Source: Parafannyhessea umbonata (GTDB taxonomy: Bacteria > Actinomycetota > Coriobacteriia > Coriobacteriales > Atopobiaceae). From it: a stretch of 64,000 nucleotides of DNA. The DNA is taken from NCBI RefSeq assembly GCF_900111255.1, contig NZ_FOGP01000002.1, positions 1 through 64,000 of the forward strand. Reading direction: 5' to 3'. The position numbers and the translations under genes were made by a program. The stretch's first letter is position 1. Each line of letters opens with the position of its first letter. The notes beneath the pieces were generated by a model that was not told the DNA's origin, searched no databases, and was given only the letters and a program-made list of their open reading frames with translations. Shown piece by piece: positions 4,753 through 49,345 of the stretch.

Positions 4753-5886
4753 TTACAAGCCAGTCTTTGAAACGCCATACTCTGCTTGATCGTAAGTAAA
4801 GCCTTCGAATACAAGCTGCTCAACTAAGCCTTTATGCGAGAACGAACCCCAGCTCAGATATTTATTTGCCTTTTTGTAGGCTTGTTCGTTCCAGTCCGCC
4901 CCGCAGTATCGAACTCCCCATTCTGCATCTTCCTGCGAAAAACCCTCAAATTCTAGTTGCTCAATCAAGCCTTGCTCTGAGAAAGCTCCCCAGCTTAAAT
5001 AACTGTCAGCCTTTTTCAGAGCGTTCATCTTTGACTTTGAGATATCGGGGGTAAATGATTCGGTTTCGACGACCTGACCGCAAACGGTGCATTTCCGCGC
5101 TTTCTTGCCAGGCGTTATAGTTCCCGATGGGCTTATCTTTGCTTCCTCGGTTACCTCCCAATCTCCTGGCGTGTGTTTTGCTTTAGGAATGGTTTCTTGC
5201 ACCGTTTCTCCGCATCGCGTACATTTTCCATGGCGCAATCCCGTTGATGTGCAACTTGCCTCGGTGTCCACAGTCCACTCACTGACAGAATGACCTAATG
5301 CCGAACCTTGTGTTGCCCCGCATACAGAGCATGTTTCCGGTTCTGTGCAAGTTGCTGCTTTCCAATTATGGCCTGCTGGCTCGCCTTGCGTTCGTCCGCA
5401 GATGTTGCACGTTTCTGGTTCTGTGCATGTCGCTTCAGCCCAATCATGGAAACAAATGGTGTGCGTAGCGAAAAGGCCAATTACTATAAGAGCAACAACC
5501 GCGATGCCGACTCCAATGAGTACTGTTTTGTTCGAAAGGAGCTTCTTAATCGCATCAGTTGAGGGCTTCTTCTCTTCTCCCTGGCTATTCTCAGCCAACG
5601 TGACGGCATCTGTCTCGTCACTCTTGAATGAATCTCCTGTTCCGTTCGGGTTTTCTATTGCCTCCTCAGTCTGGTTTTCGAAGTTGGGGCTATCATCGTT
5701 GTGCTCGTTGTCGCTTTCGCCTTCGCTCTGCATAACCTCAGGCTCATCAAGCGCCTGGGGGGTAGTTTCAGTTTCTCCTTCGAACGAATTCTTGTCGGCA
5801 TCAACTTCGGAAGAGGTGAGCTCTGTTTCTTCGGTAATATCGGTAGACTCGTTTTGCTGCTCTTGCATCTTTTCTGATTCGGTCAT
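4753..5886 (-). CDS. Membrane-anchored Cys-repeat protein with two C-terminal Ltp repeats
   Basis: 377 residues from ATG 5886 (AAGGGGG lies 9 nt upstream; an in-frame TTG two codons earlier is too close to it). Order: Glu/Asp/Ser-rich N-terminus (~1-110), one membrane helix (~120-142), three Cys-pair units (two near-identical TCTEPETCxxCGxTQG units, then CTRCG/CTVCG), then two tandem ~42-residue repeats (~288-330 and 336-377) with the pattern AxxYLSWGxFSxxGLxEQLxFEGF. These match the Ltp family; phage Ltp proteins sit outside the membrane and block phage DNA entry. Here the lipobox is replaced by a transmembrane anchor. Upstream of the recombinase by 22 nt. The immunity role is inference from family and context. 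Confidence 0.75.
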   Translation of the reverse strand: MTESEKMQEQQNESTDITEETELTSSEVDADKNSFEGETETTPQALDEPEVMQSEGESDNEHNDDSPNFENQTEEAIENPNGTGDSFKSDETDAVTLAENSQGEEKKPSTDAIKKLLSNKTVLIGVGIAVVALIVIGLFATHTICFHDWAEATCTEPETCNICGRTQGEPAGHNWKAATCTEPETCSVCGATQGSALGHSVSEWTVDTEASCTSTGLRHGKCTRCGETVQETIPKAKHTPGDWEVTEEAKISPSGTITPGKKARKCTVCGQVVETESFTPDISKSKMNALKKADSYLSWGAFSEQGLIEQLEFEGFSQEDAEWGVRYCGADWNEQAYKKANKYLSWGSFSHKGLVEQLVFEGFTYDQAEYGVSKTGL

Positions 5887-6064
5887 GTGCAATTCCCCCT
5901 TCCCGATTCACTCTTGTTTAATCTAAGAGTGCATCTGTCATTTCTGCCTGTCCGTAAACTCACATCGAAAGCTGCAAACAGCCTGTCCCATATGAATATG
6001 AACAGTATAGTCCGCAATTAGGCCGACGCGACGGGTGAACCTGCTGTTTGTATGATGCAGAAAT

Positions 6065-43492: not shown

Positions 43493-44956
<1,464 letters not shown>

Positions 44957-45019
44957 TTAGTGCGTAGTCCATCGTAAAACAAATGGGAGCCGCATGCTCG
45001 GAAGGAAGTCGCGAACCAC

Positions 45020-45766
45020 CTAGAAGATTGCGCCAAGCACAATAACCACAAGGCAGAGCGAGAAGATCGCATAGTCGCGGGTTGCCATGGGATAGCGCTT
45101 GTAGGACGACTCGCGCGTCCTCAGGTAGAAGCCACGCTGCTCTGCCGCAAGCGCCGTGTCGTCCGCCTTGCTGACCGAGGTGATGAGCAGCGGCGCCGCC
45201 AGGGGCATCATGAGGCCGAGCTTCCTGAGCGGGTTGCCGGAGTCAAACTCGACGCCACGGGCAGTCTGGGCCTCGACGATGCGGGACATCTCGTGCGAGA
45301 AGATGGGCACGAATCTGAGAGCAGTGGTAATGGTGAAGGCATAGCGATATGGCAGGTGAAGCACCTCGACCGCAGCGTTGGTCAGGTCGGTAAGGCGCGT
45401 CACGGTAAGCATGAGAACCAGGGGAAGCGCGAAGGTCACGAGACGCAGGGCAACATGAGCGCCCGTGTCCGCCCCCCTATCGGTAACCCAGAGGAACACG
45501 GGAGTGCCAGCACGCACGATGACAGTCTGCACCAGGAACATGAGCGCACCCAGAGACGAGAACGCCAGAAGGAGCGAGACGGCCTTCTTTCCCACGCCCG
45601 CATAGACTCCCGCCAGGAGCACGAGGGCCAGCAGGAGAACGAGCGTGAGGTACTCGTTCGCGAGAAACGTCGCAATGCAGACGGCGACGGCGAAGGCGAC
45701 CTTCGAGATGGGGTTCGCGCGGTGCAGCAACGTGCTGCCCTCGCTGTATTCGAGCAGTCCGGCCAT
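45020..45766 (-). CDS. ecfT: ECF transporter T component
   Basis: 248 residues, about five membrane helices. The two coupling-helix signatures are visible: EAQTARGVEF (Ala-Arg-Gly) and AEQRGFYLRTR. EcfT couples the ATPases to the S protein. It starts right at the stop of the S-A-A fusion gene, so the operon encodes a complete dedicated transporter. Downstream, obgE follows after 75 nt without an evident terminator. Confidence 0.93.
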   Translation of the reverse strand: MAGLLEYSEGSTLLHRANPISKVAFAVAVCIATFLANEYLTLVLLLALVLLAGVYAGVGKKAVSLLLAFSSLGALMFLVQTVIVRAGTPVFLWVTDRGADTGAHVALRLVTFALPLVLMLTVTRLTDLTNAAVEVLHLPYRYAFTITTALRFVPIFSHEMSRIVEAQTARGVEFDSGNPLRKLGLMMPLAAPLLITSVSKADDTALAAEQRGFYLRTRESSYKRYPMATRDYAIFSLCLVVIVLGAIF

Positions 45767-48226
45767 CTACCCCACCAGTCCCTTCATGACGTCCACGATG
45801 TCCTTAACCTCGGTAATTCCGCGGAAGCGCTCGAAACCGGCATCCGCCAACCCCTGAGACAGCTCGCTCACCTGGGGGGGTGCGATGCACGCCTTGCCAA
45901 GCAGCTCCGCACGCGAGAACAGCACGGAGGGTTCGCCGTCCTCCAACACCCTGCCGTTTGCCATTACGATGAGACGCGTCGCGTAGTCGGAGACCACCTC
46001 CATGTCGTGGCAGACCATGACCACCGCGCAGCCGCGCTCGCGCGCCGCGTTGACCGAGTCCATGACGGTCATACACTCGCGGTAGTCGAGACCACTTGTC
46101 GGCTCGTCGAGAATCATCACCTTGGGGTTCGTCACGACGACCGAGGCAAGGGCGACGATCTGGCGCTGTCCGCGCGAGAGCGTGAAGGGGGCCGCCTCGG
46201 GGTCGAGGCCGAAGTACGACACGACGTCCGCAGCGCGCTGGAACGCCTCGTCGTCGGGGACGCCAAGCAGTTGCAGGCTGAAGGCGACCTCCTCGAGCAC
46301 CGTCTGCCTGCAGATCTGGTGATCGGGGTTCTGGAACAGCGTGGAGACCTTCTGGGCAATCTCGCTGGTGCGCGCCCGGCGCGTGTCGAGACCGCAGATG
46401 TTGACGCTACCGTCACCCGGCTTGAGCAGGCCGTTCATGAGCTTAGTGAGGGTGGTCTTTCCCGCTCCGTTCTGCCCGACGACGGCGACGAGTTCGCCGG
46501 CGCCCACGTCGAAGCAGACATGGTCGACGGACGCCTTGCCGACGCCATAGCTAAACGACACGTCCCTCAAGGAAAGCATGGGGTCGCCTGCGGGCGCGGG
46601 AGTGGCAAGGCGATGAGGAGAAGCCGAGGGGGCAACGTGAGACGCGGCCTTCACCGGCGTGGAAGAGAGCAGGCCGAGCAGGCCGTCACGGGCCTGCGAG
46701 ACGGTGAGGAAGCCCTTCTCGGCAGGGTCAAGGACTCCAGTCACAGCAAGGCCATTGGATATGCGCGTGACGCGGGGGCTGTCCACACCGATGTCGCGAA
46801 GGTCCTTGGAGTGCGAGAACACCTCTCGCGGAGAGCCGTCAAGCGCGACGGAGCCCTGGGAGAGGACGATGACGCGGTCGCAGTACTCAGAGAGAAGGGC
46901 GACCTTCTGCTCGATGACGATGACCGTGATGCCACGCGCATTGAGCTCCCTGAGGGTCTCGAAGACCATGCGCGAGGACGCGGGGTCGAGGGCCGCGGTC
47001 GGCTCGTCGAGCACCATGACCCGTGGGCTGATGGCGAGGATGGCGGCAATCGCCACCTTCTGCTTCTGGCCGCCCGAGAGCGTCGAGATCTCCCTGCGCC
47101 TCAGGTCCTCGATGCCTGCGGTGCGAAGCGCATACGACACGCGCTTCTCGATGGCGCTCCGCTCGAAGCCAAAGTTCTCGAGTCCGTACAAGATCTCGTC
47201 CTCGACGTCCGCAGCCACCATCTGGGCGTCAATGTCCTGCAATACGGACCCTACGACGCGCGAGACGTCCGTCAGCGCCACCTCGCAGGTGTCCATGCCG
47301 CCGACGAGTGCCGCTCCACGGAACTCCCCGGCGAAGTGATGGGGAATGGCACCGGAGACGACCGAGGCCAAGGTGGTCTTTCCAGCTCCAGAGGGGCCGA
47401 TCACGCCCACAAAGGATCCGGCACCAAAGGTCAGGCTGACGTCGTCAAGGGCGCGGCGACGGGCTCCGTCATAGGTAAAGGAGACGTGCTGAAGCTCCAC
47501 GGCCGCGGCACCTGGGTAGACGTCAGGAACCGCCTCCGTGGTCGCGGTCGACACGTCAAGCGACTCGTTTGATCCACCTTCGGCACGAACGCCTTGGACG
47601 ACGCCGTCCGAGTCGTCGCGGGATGTGCCCGACGCCTCCCCCGTTGAGGGGAGCCTCTGCAGGAAGGCACTCCTCAGGGGAAGATACAGCGATTGGACCA
47701 CTATAGCGTTGGCGAGGGCGGTGCCAATGACAATGGGCAGCATGGCCACCACGGCCAGGGGCTCGCCCCTGAGCACGACCACAGTCGCAAGGGTGGCAAA
47801 GATGAGGCCCGAGACGGCCGTCGTGACGCACGTGGACAGGAAGGGCACGAGGCCGCGCGGCCCCCTTTCCCCCGTAAGCCTGACGATCGCGGCCATGAGG
47901 AGAGACGCGGGGATGTCGCAGACGTACTCGAGGCCGGGAATCGACGTGGTGAACTGAATGACGGTGGCCGCGAGAACCCCGATGAGAACGCCATGAGGCA
48001 GGGTCGGGCGCAGCAGGAGAATCGCAAGGCAATACGACGAGATGACGAACTCGGGCTGGATGCCCGTCATGGAGAGGGCCTTGCCGACGGTCATGTTGAG
48101 GATGAAACCGGCCGCGAGGAGCATGGCCACCAGGACCAGGCTAGCGACATCGAACCTCGGACCTTCTCCGCCGCGCCGGACTGCCTTTTGATTCACGAGC
48201 TGACCTCCCTGGTCAAAATAACGCAT
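45767..48226 (-). CDS. Fusion of an ECF S component with two ECF ATPases
   Basis: 819 residues in three parts. 25-195: six hydrophobic helices similar to the separate S protein encoded upstream (TGIQPEFVISSYCLAIL against its TGIKPQFVIASYCLAVL). ~200-240: linker. First ATPase: Walker A 277-285 (GPSGAGKTT), signature LSGGQKQK at 383-390, Walker B VMVLDEPTAALD. Second ATPase: Walker A 584-592 (GQNGAGKTT), signature LSRGQRQI near 683-690, Walker B VMILDEPTSGLD. Both sites look active. In usual ECF systems S, EcfA and EcfA' are separate chains. The upstream attenuator points to tryptophan as substrate. Confidence 0.93.
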   Translation of the reverse strand: MRYFDQGGQLVNQKAVRRGGEGPRFDVASLVLVAMLLAAGFILNMTVGKALSMTGIQPEFVISSYCLAILLLRPTLPHGVLIGVLAATVIQFTTSIPGLEYVCDIPASLLMAAIVRLTGERGPRGLVPFLSTCVTTAVSGLIFATLATVVVLRGEPLAVVAMLPIVIGTALANAIVVQSLYLPLRSAFLQRLPSTGEASGTSRDDSDGVVQGVRAEGGSNESLDVSTATTEAVPDVYPGAAAVELQHVSFTYDGARRRALDDVSLTFGAGSFVGVIGPSGAGKTTLASVVSGAIPHHFAGEFRGAALVGGMDTCEVALTDVSRVVGSVLQDIDAQMVAADVEDEILYGLENFGFERSAIEKRVSYALRTAGIEDLRRREISTLSGGQKQKVAIAAILAISPRVMVLDEPTAALDPASSRMVFETLRELNARGITVIVIEQKVALLSEYCDRVIVLSQGSVALDGSPREVFSHSKDLRDIGVDSPRVTRISNGLAVTGVLDPAEKGFLTVSQARDGLLGLLSSTPVKAASHVAPSASPHRLATPAPAGDPMLSLRDVSFSYGVGKASVDHVCFDVGAGELVAVVGQNGAGKTTLTKLMNGLLKPGDGSVNICGLDTRRARTSEIAQKVSTLFQNPDHQICRQTVLEEVAFSLQLLGVPDDEAFQRAADVVSYFGLDPEAAPFTLSRGQRQIVALASVVVTNPKVMILDEPTSGLDYRECMTVMDSVNAARERGCAVVMVCHDMEVVSDYATRLIVMANGRVLEDGEPSVLFSRAELLGKACIAPPQVSELSQGLADAGFERFRGITEVKDIVDVMKGLVG

Positions 48227-48772
48227 CTAGCGCTTGAGAGCCTTCTTGAGCGGCAGGTAGAGAGCCTGCACGACGATTGCGTTGAACACTGCAGTGCCAA
48301 GCACGATGGGAAGCTTGACAACGACGGTCGCGATGTCGGCACCCATGATCAGCGTTCCGCAGGCCGCGAACAGAAGACCGGACACGAGCGTCGCGCAGAA
48401 CGCTCCGACGAGAGGAACAACCCTGCCCTCCCCGGAAGTGCCGTTGACGATGGCGGCCATGACCAGCGCACCGGCGGACTCGGTCAGGAAGTTGAGCCCC
48501 GGAATCGAGGTGGAAACCTGGATGATGGCGGCGGAGATCAGCCCGAGCACGACGGCCTGGCTCGTCTTGGGCCTGATGAGCAGCACGGCAAGGCAATACG
48601 ACGCGATGACGAACTGGGGCTTGATGCCCGTGACCGCAAGGGCGTTGCCAAGCGTGATGTTGAGGATGATGCCCGCTGCCACCAGGATGGCGGTGAGCAC
48701 GAGCGAAGAGATGTCGAGGCCATTGTTCTTGGCGGACTGACTAACGGTGCGAGGCTGGTTTGCGTCTGACAT
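48227..48772 (-). CDS. ECF transporter S component, probably tryptophan-specific
   Basis: 181 residues, about six helices, hydrophobic throughout. The segment TGIKPQFVIASYCLAVLLIRP resembles the TrpP family of substrate-binding subunits. It is a near duplicate of the N-terminal domain of the next gene's product, and its stop is directly followed by that gene. GGAGGA lies 5 nt before the ATG. The Trp leader peptide and attenuator upstream give independent evidence for tryptophan. Why two S domains are kept is unknown. Confidence 0.82.
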   Translation of the reverse strand: MSDANQPRTVSQSAKNNGLDISSLVLTAILVAAGIILNITLGNALAVTGIKPQFVIASYCLAVLLIRPKTSQAVVLGLISAAIIQVSTSIPGLNFLTESAGALVMAAIVNGTSGEGRVVPLVGAFCATLVSGLLFAACGTLIMGADIATVVVKLPIVLGTAVFNAIVVQALYLPLKKALKR

Positions 48773-48824
48773 GGCTTCCTCCTACTGGCTGTTGGAACTG
48801 CGGACTTTAGCGCGGCAAAGCAAA

Positions 48825-48896
48825 GGCGACCCCCGATCAACTCGGAAGTCGCCATCTTCTTTACCTATGCGGCAGCGATCGGCTCAGAGTTGACCG
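48825..48896 (-). promoter_or_regulatory. Tryptophan transcription attenuator (terminator/antiterminator)
   Basis: Terminator: GGCGAC/GTCGCC (48853-48848 with 48830-48825) plus an inner CCG/CGG, followed on the minus strand by TTTGCTTT. Antiterminator: CGGTCAACTC (48896-48887), the end of the leader ORF, pairs over 10 bp (one G-U) with GAGTTGATCG (48843-48834), which lies inside the terminator stem. The two are mutually exclusive. A ribosome stalled at the Trp codons leaves the first element free, so transcription continues; one at the stop codon covers it. Confidence 0.85.
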
Positions 48897-48946
48897 AGAG
48901 AGGATAGACTATGCCACCACCAGTTCTTGCTCGCGAGAAAAGGCAT
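48884..48946 (-). CDS. Trp leader peptide of the ECF transporter operon
   Basis: A 20-residue ORF with AGGAGG 8 nt before its ATG. It contains three consecutive Trp codons (TGG TGG TGG, 48922-48914, residues 9-11, context KNWWWHS) and ends with TGA at 48886-48884. Trp is normally the rarest residue, so WWW in 20 codons is not chance. The ORF overlaps the antiterminator strand, exactly the geometry of ribosome-mediated attenuation. The peptide itself need have no function. Confidence 0.88.
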   Translation of the reverse strand: MPFLASKNWWWHSLSSLGQL

Positions 48947-49052
48947 GTAATCCACCTCCTGGGTCTATATCCGATGTCGCTGGTGACAATCTATCAAAAC
49001 CGACGAAAACGCTCCACAACAATTCGGCACACGTCTTTGTCTAGTAACAAAA
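48947..49052. other. Promoter-bearing gap upstream of the Trp leader
   Basis: Between the rpmA terminator and the leader ORF. The operon promoter must lie here. TATAGA near 48970 and GATAGA near 48998 (minus strand) are possible -10 boxes but neither has a well-spaced -35, so I leave it unassigned. Confidence 0.3.
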
Positions 49053-49074
49053 AGCCCCCTCGAAGGAGGGGGCT
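49053..49074 (-). terminator. Terminator of rplU-rpmA
   Basis: AGCCCCCTC (49053-49061) and GAGGGGGCT (49066-49074) are perfect arms around GAAG, followed by TTTTTG on the minus strand. It isolates the ribosomal protein operon from the Trp-controlled one. Confidence 0.92.
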
Positions 49075-49096
49075 CAACAAACTCTAAGCTCTTGCA

Positions 49097-49345
49097 CTAG
49101 GCGGTGCGAACGTGCACGTAGTGCTTAGCACCCTTGACGAACTCAACGGTGCCATCAGCAAGTGCGAACAGGGTGTCGTCCTTGCCACGACCAACGTTCT
49201 CGCCGGGGGTGATGTGCGTACCACGCTGGCGGACGATGATCTGACCAGTCTTCACGGCCTGGCCACCATAAATCTTGGTGCCAAGACGCTGGGCGTTGGA
49301 GTCACGGCCGTTGCGAGAAGAGCCGAGGCCTTTCTTGTGAGCCAT
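49097..49345 (-). CDS. rpmA: 50S ribosomal protein L27
   Basis: 82 residues; contacts the peptidyl-transferase centre. Family start [15 protein letters not shown] directly after Met, so no cleavable N-terminal extension as found in some Firmicutes. Follows rplU by 45 nt. Confidence 0.98.

Follow-up and report, generated by a model that had tools for sequence, protein, structure and literature searches.

On the minus strand of the window, by which we mean the whole 64,000-nucleotide stretch of Parafannyhessea umbonata DNA that was analyzed, rpmA (L27) is followed by a putative attenuator, an ECF transporter operon and obg, in that order. The features of the locus are as follows.

49345-49097, minus strand: rpmA (L27)
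49052-49075, minus strand: terminator of the upstream rpmA (L27)
48955-48960, minus strand: leader Shine-Dalgarno sequence AGGAGG; almost all relatives have a similar motif before the leader ATG
48884-48946, minus strand: leader ORF of 20 codons with the predicted translation MPFLASKNWWWHSLSSLGQL, ATG at 48946 and stop codon TGA at 48886-48884
48914-48922, minus strand: three adjacent Trp codons TGG (TGGTGGTGG), the presumed sensor
48912-48917, minus strand: P1 5' arm GTGGCA of a pause-type hairpin, overlapping Trp codons 2 and 3; covaries in relatives
48869-48874, minus strand: P1 3' arm TGCCGC, directly after the leader stop codon; covaries in relatives
48887-48900, minus strand: putative antiterminator strand (region 2), CTCTCGGTCAACTC, within the end of the leader ORF
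48830-48843, minus strand: partner of region 2, GAGTTGATCGGGGG, comprising the terminator loop and part of its 3' arm
48825-48853, minus strand: intrinsic terminator GGCGACTTCCGA-GTTGA-TCGGGGGTCGCC, 12 bp with the loop GTTGA (-21.4 kcal/mol)
48816-48824, minus strand: interrupted T tract TTTGCTTTG after the terminator
48227-48772, minus strand: first gene of the operon, a TrpP-like ECF S component (Pfam TrpP, PF17099, E 3.4e-5, 24.2 bits)
45767-48226, minus strand: 819-aa fusion of a second TrpP-like S domain (S match 47666-48184) with EcfA1 and EcfA2 ATPase domains (TIGR04520, TIGR04521)
45020-45766, minus strand: EcfT (CbiQ-type) transmembrane coupling protein (PF02361, E 3.9e-26)

Because the rpmA terminator lies at 49052-49075, transcription of the leader probably begins between 49052 and 48961; no promoter for it was found in the window sequence. 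An Rfam search of the window returned two tRNAs only, with no known Trp leader or T-box at gathering score.

The operon encodes an ECF transporter with its own T and A components, as two ECF ATPases and EcfT accompany the S gene. With 24.2 bits the S component falls short of the Pfam TrpP cut-off (27.2 bits) and by that measure is not assigned to PF17099; homologues from Gordonibacter (47.1 bits), Gardnerella (28.8 bits) and Clostridium pass the cut-off, and 13 of 23 S homologues match PF17099 at E 0.001. Among solved structures, none in the PDB was related in sequence to the S family at E 0.1. The S component is homologous to that of the TrpP family, but here it stands in a dedicated operon in which a second S domain is fused to the ATPases. 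Long S-containing frames like the 819-aa fusion were also seen in three other genomes (G042, G049 and G008). We infer that the S component transports tryptophan, which the Trp leader supports indirectly.

A preliminary description, made from the letters of the window, had placed a 20-codon ORF with a Shine-Dalgarno sequence and three Trp codons at this site, and its coordinates and description are correct. It had also assigned the attenuation to an ECF transporter operon rather than to biosynthesis genes. This assignment is strongly supported, with the TrpP-like S gene first, followed by the EcfA1/EcfA2 fusion and EcfT. A leader ORF with tandem UGG codons is present, as is a terminator between the leader and the first gene. 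The string TGGTGGTGG alone is not rare, occurring at 31 genomic sites vs 24 for a reversed control.

The final segment of the leader ORF can pair with the terminator. The antiterminator contains 10 bp (CGGTCAACTC:GAGTTGATCG), which G-U pairs lengthen to a helix of 13–14 bp with a duplex energy of -18.4 kcal/mol. For the window alone this pairing is moderately unlikely by chance, since an equally good duplex arose in 68 of 5000 dinucleotide shuffles. A 10-bp antiterminator with one strand at the leader end had been proposed before; strand and pairing stand, while the partner is now refined to the terminator loop, the 3' arm and the last bases of the 5' arm. Region 2 is similar to the 5' arm of the terminator, with which it competes for the loop and 3' arm. 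Thus, as read from the pairing strands, the putative antiterminator is one that captures the loop and 3' strand of the terminator, not its 5' strand.

To analyze relatives, we gathered Atopobiaceae S-component homologues by protein match alone and then read their upstream regions. A WWW leader with a terminator after it precedes the S gene in 62 of 69 loci, a result that favors attenuation on the point at which the preliminary description would have failed, namely relatives lacking both the Trp codons and the pairing. In the remaining loci the leader has WW (L032), is cut by a contig end (L019) or is lacking (L025, L026, L069, L071 and L072). Among named genomes, a set that overlaps the Atopobiaceae set, WWW was found in 65 of 80 loci and WW in one; carriers include Olsenella, Lancefieldella, Tractidigestivibacter, Thermophilibacter, Collinsella, Enorma and Gardnerella. 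Where the upstream sequence is complete, loci of Collinsella and Enorma carry the WWW leader (WW in L144), and nearly all Coriobacteriaceae loci have a WWW leader and terminator before a TrpP-like S gene. No WWW leader was found upstream of the S-gene loci of Eggerthellaceae such as Gordonibacter and Raoultibacter, or of Clostridia, and no T-box reached the gathering threshold at 13 loci picked mainly for an absent leader. Overall, three actinobacterial families share the leader, its spacing and its pairings. The leader peptide is conserved only at WWW and at the GR/GQ encoded by region 2, with an N-terminal part that varies freely. Judged by this conservation, the leader ORF is not a chance feature. 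The case for a real attenuator rests on this comparative evidence, which is decisive; the evidence from the single sequence is moderate.

Three observations were made at individual loci. Eight Gardnerella (Bifidobacteriaceae) loci (L121, L124, L129, L131, L132, L138, L152 and L159) are TrpP-ECF operons with a WWW leader and their own matched region 2 and loop. In Olsenella profusa (L089), a terminator with GGGTTGACCGGG is retained and the Trp leader ORF is lost, leaving an apparent attenuator remnant. In L069, RNase P RNA (5570-5927) lies directly upstream of the S gene, where the attenuator would be.

We aligned 63 distinct Atopobiaceae and Coriobacteriaceae leaders chosen for TGGTGGTGG; the Trp codons are therefore invariant by selection in this alignment, while the count of 62 in 69 loci is free of that selection. 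The terminator is 93.4% paired, with compensatory changes at 8 of its 12 pairs (63 compensatory cells), a level that none of 500 shuffles reached. P1, in which the third Trp codon and the following bases pair with the segment just past the stop codon, is 81.5% paired, has 5 of 8 pairs changed on both sides and exceeds all 500 shuffles in covariation score; an example is GCGCGA/TCGCGC in Olsenella vs GCGTGA/TCACGC in Collinsella. The antiterminator core CGGTC sits at a fixed position, nucleotides 27–31 from the first Trp codon; its pairing partner GACCG lies in the terminator loop and 3' arm. The antiterminator is 91.5% paired and nearly invariant in the ECF family, and covariation inside that family is therefore weak (31 of 500 shuffles reach its score). 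The leader search upstream of S homologues and the covariation tests, both called for in the preliminary description, thus found the leader to be common and the terminator and P1 to covary.

Swapping arms between species worsened the energies of P1, the antiterminator and the terminator. No arm permutation in 5000 equalled the true pairing for P1, the terminator or the antiterminator in a wide window, and two did so for the antiterminator in a narrow window. A further possible helix, P0, in which the ribosome-binding site would pair with the Trp codons, also passed the swap test (0 of 3000), but it is weak in the window (-7.8 kcal/mol) and was therefore left out of the mechanism.

Between attenuator families, region 2 and its target change together. 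Leaders of the TrpB type (described below) have region 2 as CTCGGATTA or CGGGTTATCG, matched to the target TAATCCGGGG or GGTAATCCG, and in Gardnerella region 2 is GAGTTTACTC, matched to GGGTAAGC. The TrpB-type leaders' own duplexes average -15.7 kcal/mol, vs -10.9 for ECF region 2 with TrpB-type terminators. Similarly, Gardnerella's own duplexes average -12.5 kcal/mol, vs -7.7 to -9.5 when Gardnerella region 2 is combined with other terminators. This matched change supports the proposed antiterminator pairing and its topology.

To follow the order in which the structures could form, we computed base-pair probabilities, in a pseudoknot-free model, for the RNA outside ribosome and polymerase while its 3' end lengthens. 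In the window, a ribosome on Trp codon 1 or 3 gives the antiterminator a probability of 0.98–0.99 when RNA is exposed to nucleotides 93–96 and still 0.93–0.98 at nucleotide 97; the terminator takes over once the last base of its 3' arm is exposed. A ribosome at the stop codon makes the antiterminator impossible, and the terminator then has a probability of 1.0. The average over the 63 leaders is similar, with the terminator gaining earlier, from about column 107. Because the fully exposed terminator is predicted to win, the switch must, in this model, be kinetic. Pseudoknots lie outside the model, and the lower 6 bp of the window terminator could in principle persist beside the antiterminator. 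Folding both conformers, as had been suggested, thus gave the antiterminator for a ribosome stalled at Trp and the terminator for one at the stop codon. The claim that the two hairpins are mutually exclusive was borne out by sequence, comparison and this computed ordered folding, in which the antiterminator is exposed only with the ribosome at the Trp codons.

Conservation, covariation and ordered folding make attenuation the best explanation of the locus, which is very probably a transcription attenuator that works through the ribosome, responds to charged tRNA-Trp and governs an ECF importer for tryptophan. For this mechanism we infer leader translation, stalling, read-through and the direction of the response, with tryptophan as the substrate. 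When Trp-tRNA is sufficient, the ribosome would clear the three UGG codons, arrive at the stop codon and mask region 2; the terminator would then fold and transcription would end before the S gene. When Trp-tRNA is too scarce, the ribosome would stall on UGG, opening P1 and leaving region 2 free to pair with the loop and 3' strand of the terminator on their emergence from RNA polymerase, so that the operon would be read through.

A short Trp-containing leader before tryptophan-handling genes could also work as TnaC does, a known precedent for arrest (PMC3902921): the nascent WWW peptide would sense free tryptophan and arrest the ribosome at the stop codon, and expression would rise at high tryptophan. 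We rejected this type of sensing and consider it quite improbable, since the leader combines three adjacent cognate codons with an intrinsic terminator, and arrest at the stop codon would place the ribosome over the antiterminator. In addition, the peptide is conserved only where the RNA itself requires it (WWW and the GR/GQ of region 2). The same pattern, with nothing of the peptide conserved beyond WWW and the residues encoded by region 2, weighs against action of the leader peptide or RNA in trans with attenuation secondary, as for the rhizobial rTrpL/peTrpL; although activity of peTrpL beyond attenuation is reported (PMC7298713), we regard such action here as slightly less probable still. 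Least credible, and rejected as contradicted by the comparative data, is a plain terminator beside a chance Trp-rich ORF with no regulatory role: the pairing in the window is only moderately unlikely by chance (68 of 5000 shuffles) and TGGTGGTGG is not rare in the genome, but leader, spacing and covarying structure are kept across three families.

Leaders of this kind also occur beyond the ECF operon. With a covariance model of the leader, R1, the window site gets E 2.5e-13. Of 398 Coriobacteriia genomes, 161 have a match at E up to 0.01; the weakest of these matches may be chance. Strong matches mostly precede ECF-TrpP operons. Other matches, with a WW or WWW leader and a terminator, precede a TrpB-like PLP enzyme (TIGR01415/PRK12391) or an NSS-family sodium symporter (PF00209). 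In one Eggerthellaceae genus, Trp leader attenuators were observed before NSS-family sodium symporters (L219-L225), which suggests that these symporters may be tryptophan transporters.

The genome that contains the window has a TrpB-like gene (G000:C3:359740-360987) preceded by a WW leader, MTKSPDMLSCAAPVRCAGRWWHGEA, and a terminator with six Ts. By these features the leader is a second putative Trp attenuator in the same genome. R1 alone misses it, so the number of TrpB-like leaders is a lower bound. The absence of any trp biosynthesis gene, noted earlier for the window, extends to the whole genome (99.8% complete) for trpA and trpC, but the TrpB-like gene is kept under its WW leader. Lacking trpA and trpC, the genome depends on outside tryptophan, or perhaps indole, which the TrpB-like enzyme could use, judging from its family.

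In relatives with a trp operon, biosynthesis has a different control. No Trp leader with a Shine-Dalgarno sequence and T run was found in 12 regions upstream of trpA, and a T-box core was found in 10 of the 12. At two of these operons trpE was confirmed, and a T-box (RF00230) whose specifier is apparently UGG lies ahead of it (L249 7693-7948, E 3.4e-16; L253 7342-7597, E 1.3e-12; both below the Rfam gathering score). We consider it reasonably likely that Coriobacteriia use an attenuator regulon (ECF-TrpP, NSS and TrpB-like), with an antiterminator that mimics the terminator 5' arm and traps its 3' arm, for uptake and salvage, and a tRNA-Trp T-box for biosynthesis.

In Escherichia coli trpL, UGG codons and stalled-ribosome logic select between alternative hairpins, the 2:3 antiterminator takes up the terminator 5' arm, and biosynthesis is what is controlled. 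The present leader shares the UGG codons, the stalled-ribosome logic and the alternative hairpins. In contrast to trpL, region 2 pairs with the loop and 3' arm, and uptake is controlled instead of biosynthesis. The classical trp attenuation geometry put forward in the preliminary description thus holds for leader, terminator and exclusive antiterminator, but the textbook 1:2/2:3/3:4 topology does not apply.

The nearest published cases are the trp operon attenuators of Corynebacterium and Streptomyces and that of trpS in Streptomyces avermitilis (Seliverstov et al. 2005, PMC1262725). Those attenuators, also from Actinomycetota, likewise have a leader peptide with double or triple UGG, a GC-rich terminator with a U tract and an exclusive antiterminator. 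However, they precede trp biosynthesis operons or trpS, with no transporter mentioned, whereas here the target is an ECF transporter. Theirs is a conserved triple motif, gGCC-rGCy-GGCC, in place of which the present leader has CGGTC..GACCG and a region 2 that looks like the 5' arm of the terminator and pairs with its loop and 3' arm. A T-box (RF00230) is similarly a leader RNA that senses tRNA-Trp charging and controls tryptophan acquisition, and a tryptophan uptake system of Streptococcus suis is reported to be under one (PMC9382623). The T-box binds uncharged tRNA directly, while a ribosome-mediated leader is proposed here. A 2015 paper on tryptophan-dependent classical attenuators in Actinobacteria, cited in PMC4833913, may already mention attenuators of Coriobacteriia. 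A full-text search of open-licence papers returned no report of a Trp attenuator on an ECF transporter. Thus, the mechanism class is well known, while the target, the topology and the division of labor look new.

Regulation would assign tryptophan to ECF proteins of common gut and oral bacteria, and also to NSS and TrpB-like proteins, independently of protein similarity. Ribosome attenuation would act on acquisition of tryptophan, not on synthesis. If the proposed division is true, two kinds of tRNA-Trp sensor are split between biosynthesis and uptake in one lineage and serve two routes to one amino acid. The antiterminator design lends itself to a test by compensatory mutation.

Lastly, no terminator was seen in the 75 bp ahead of obg, and attenuation could therefore affect this gene too. 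An inserted Trp ECF operon separates rpmA (L27) from obg (window 43493-49345), an arrangement also seen in 18 of 120 related loci.
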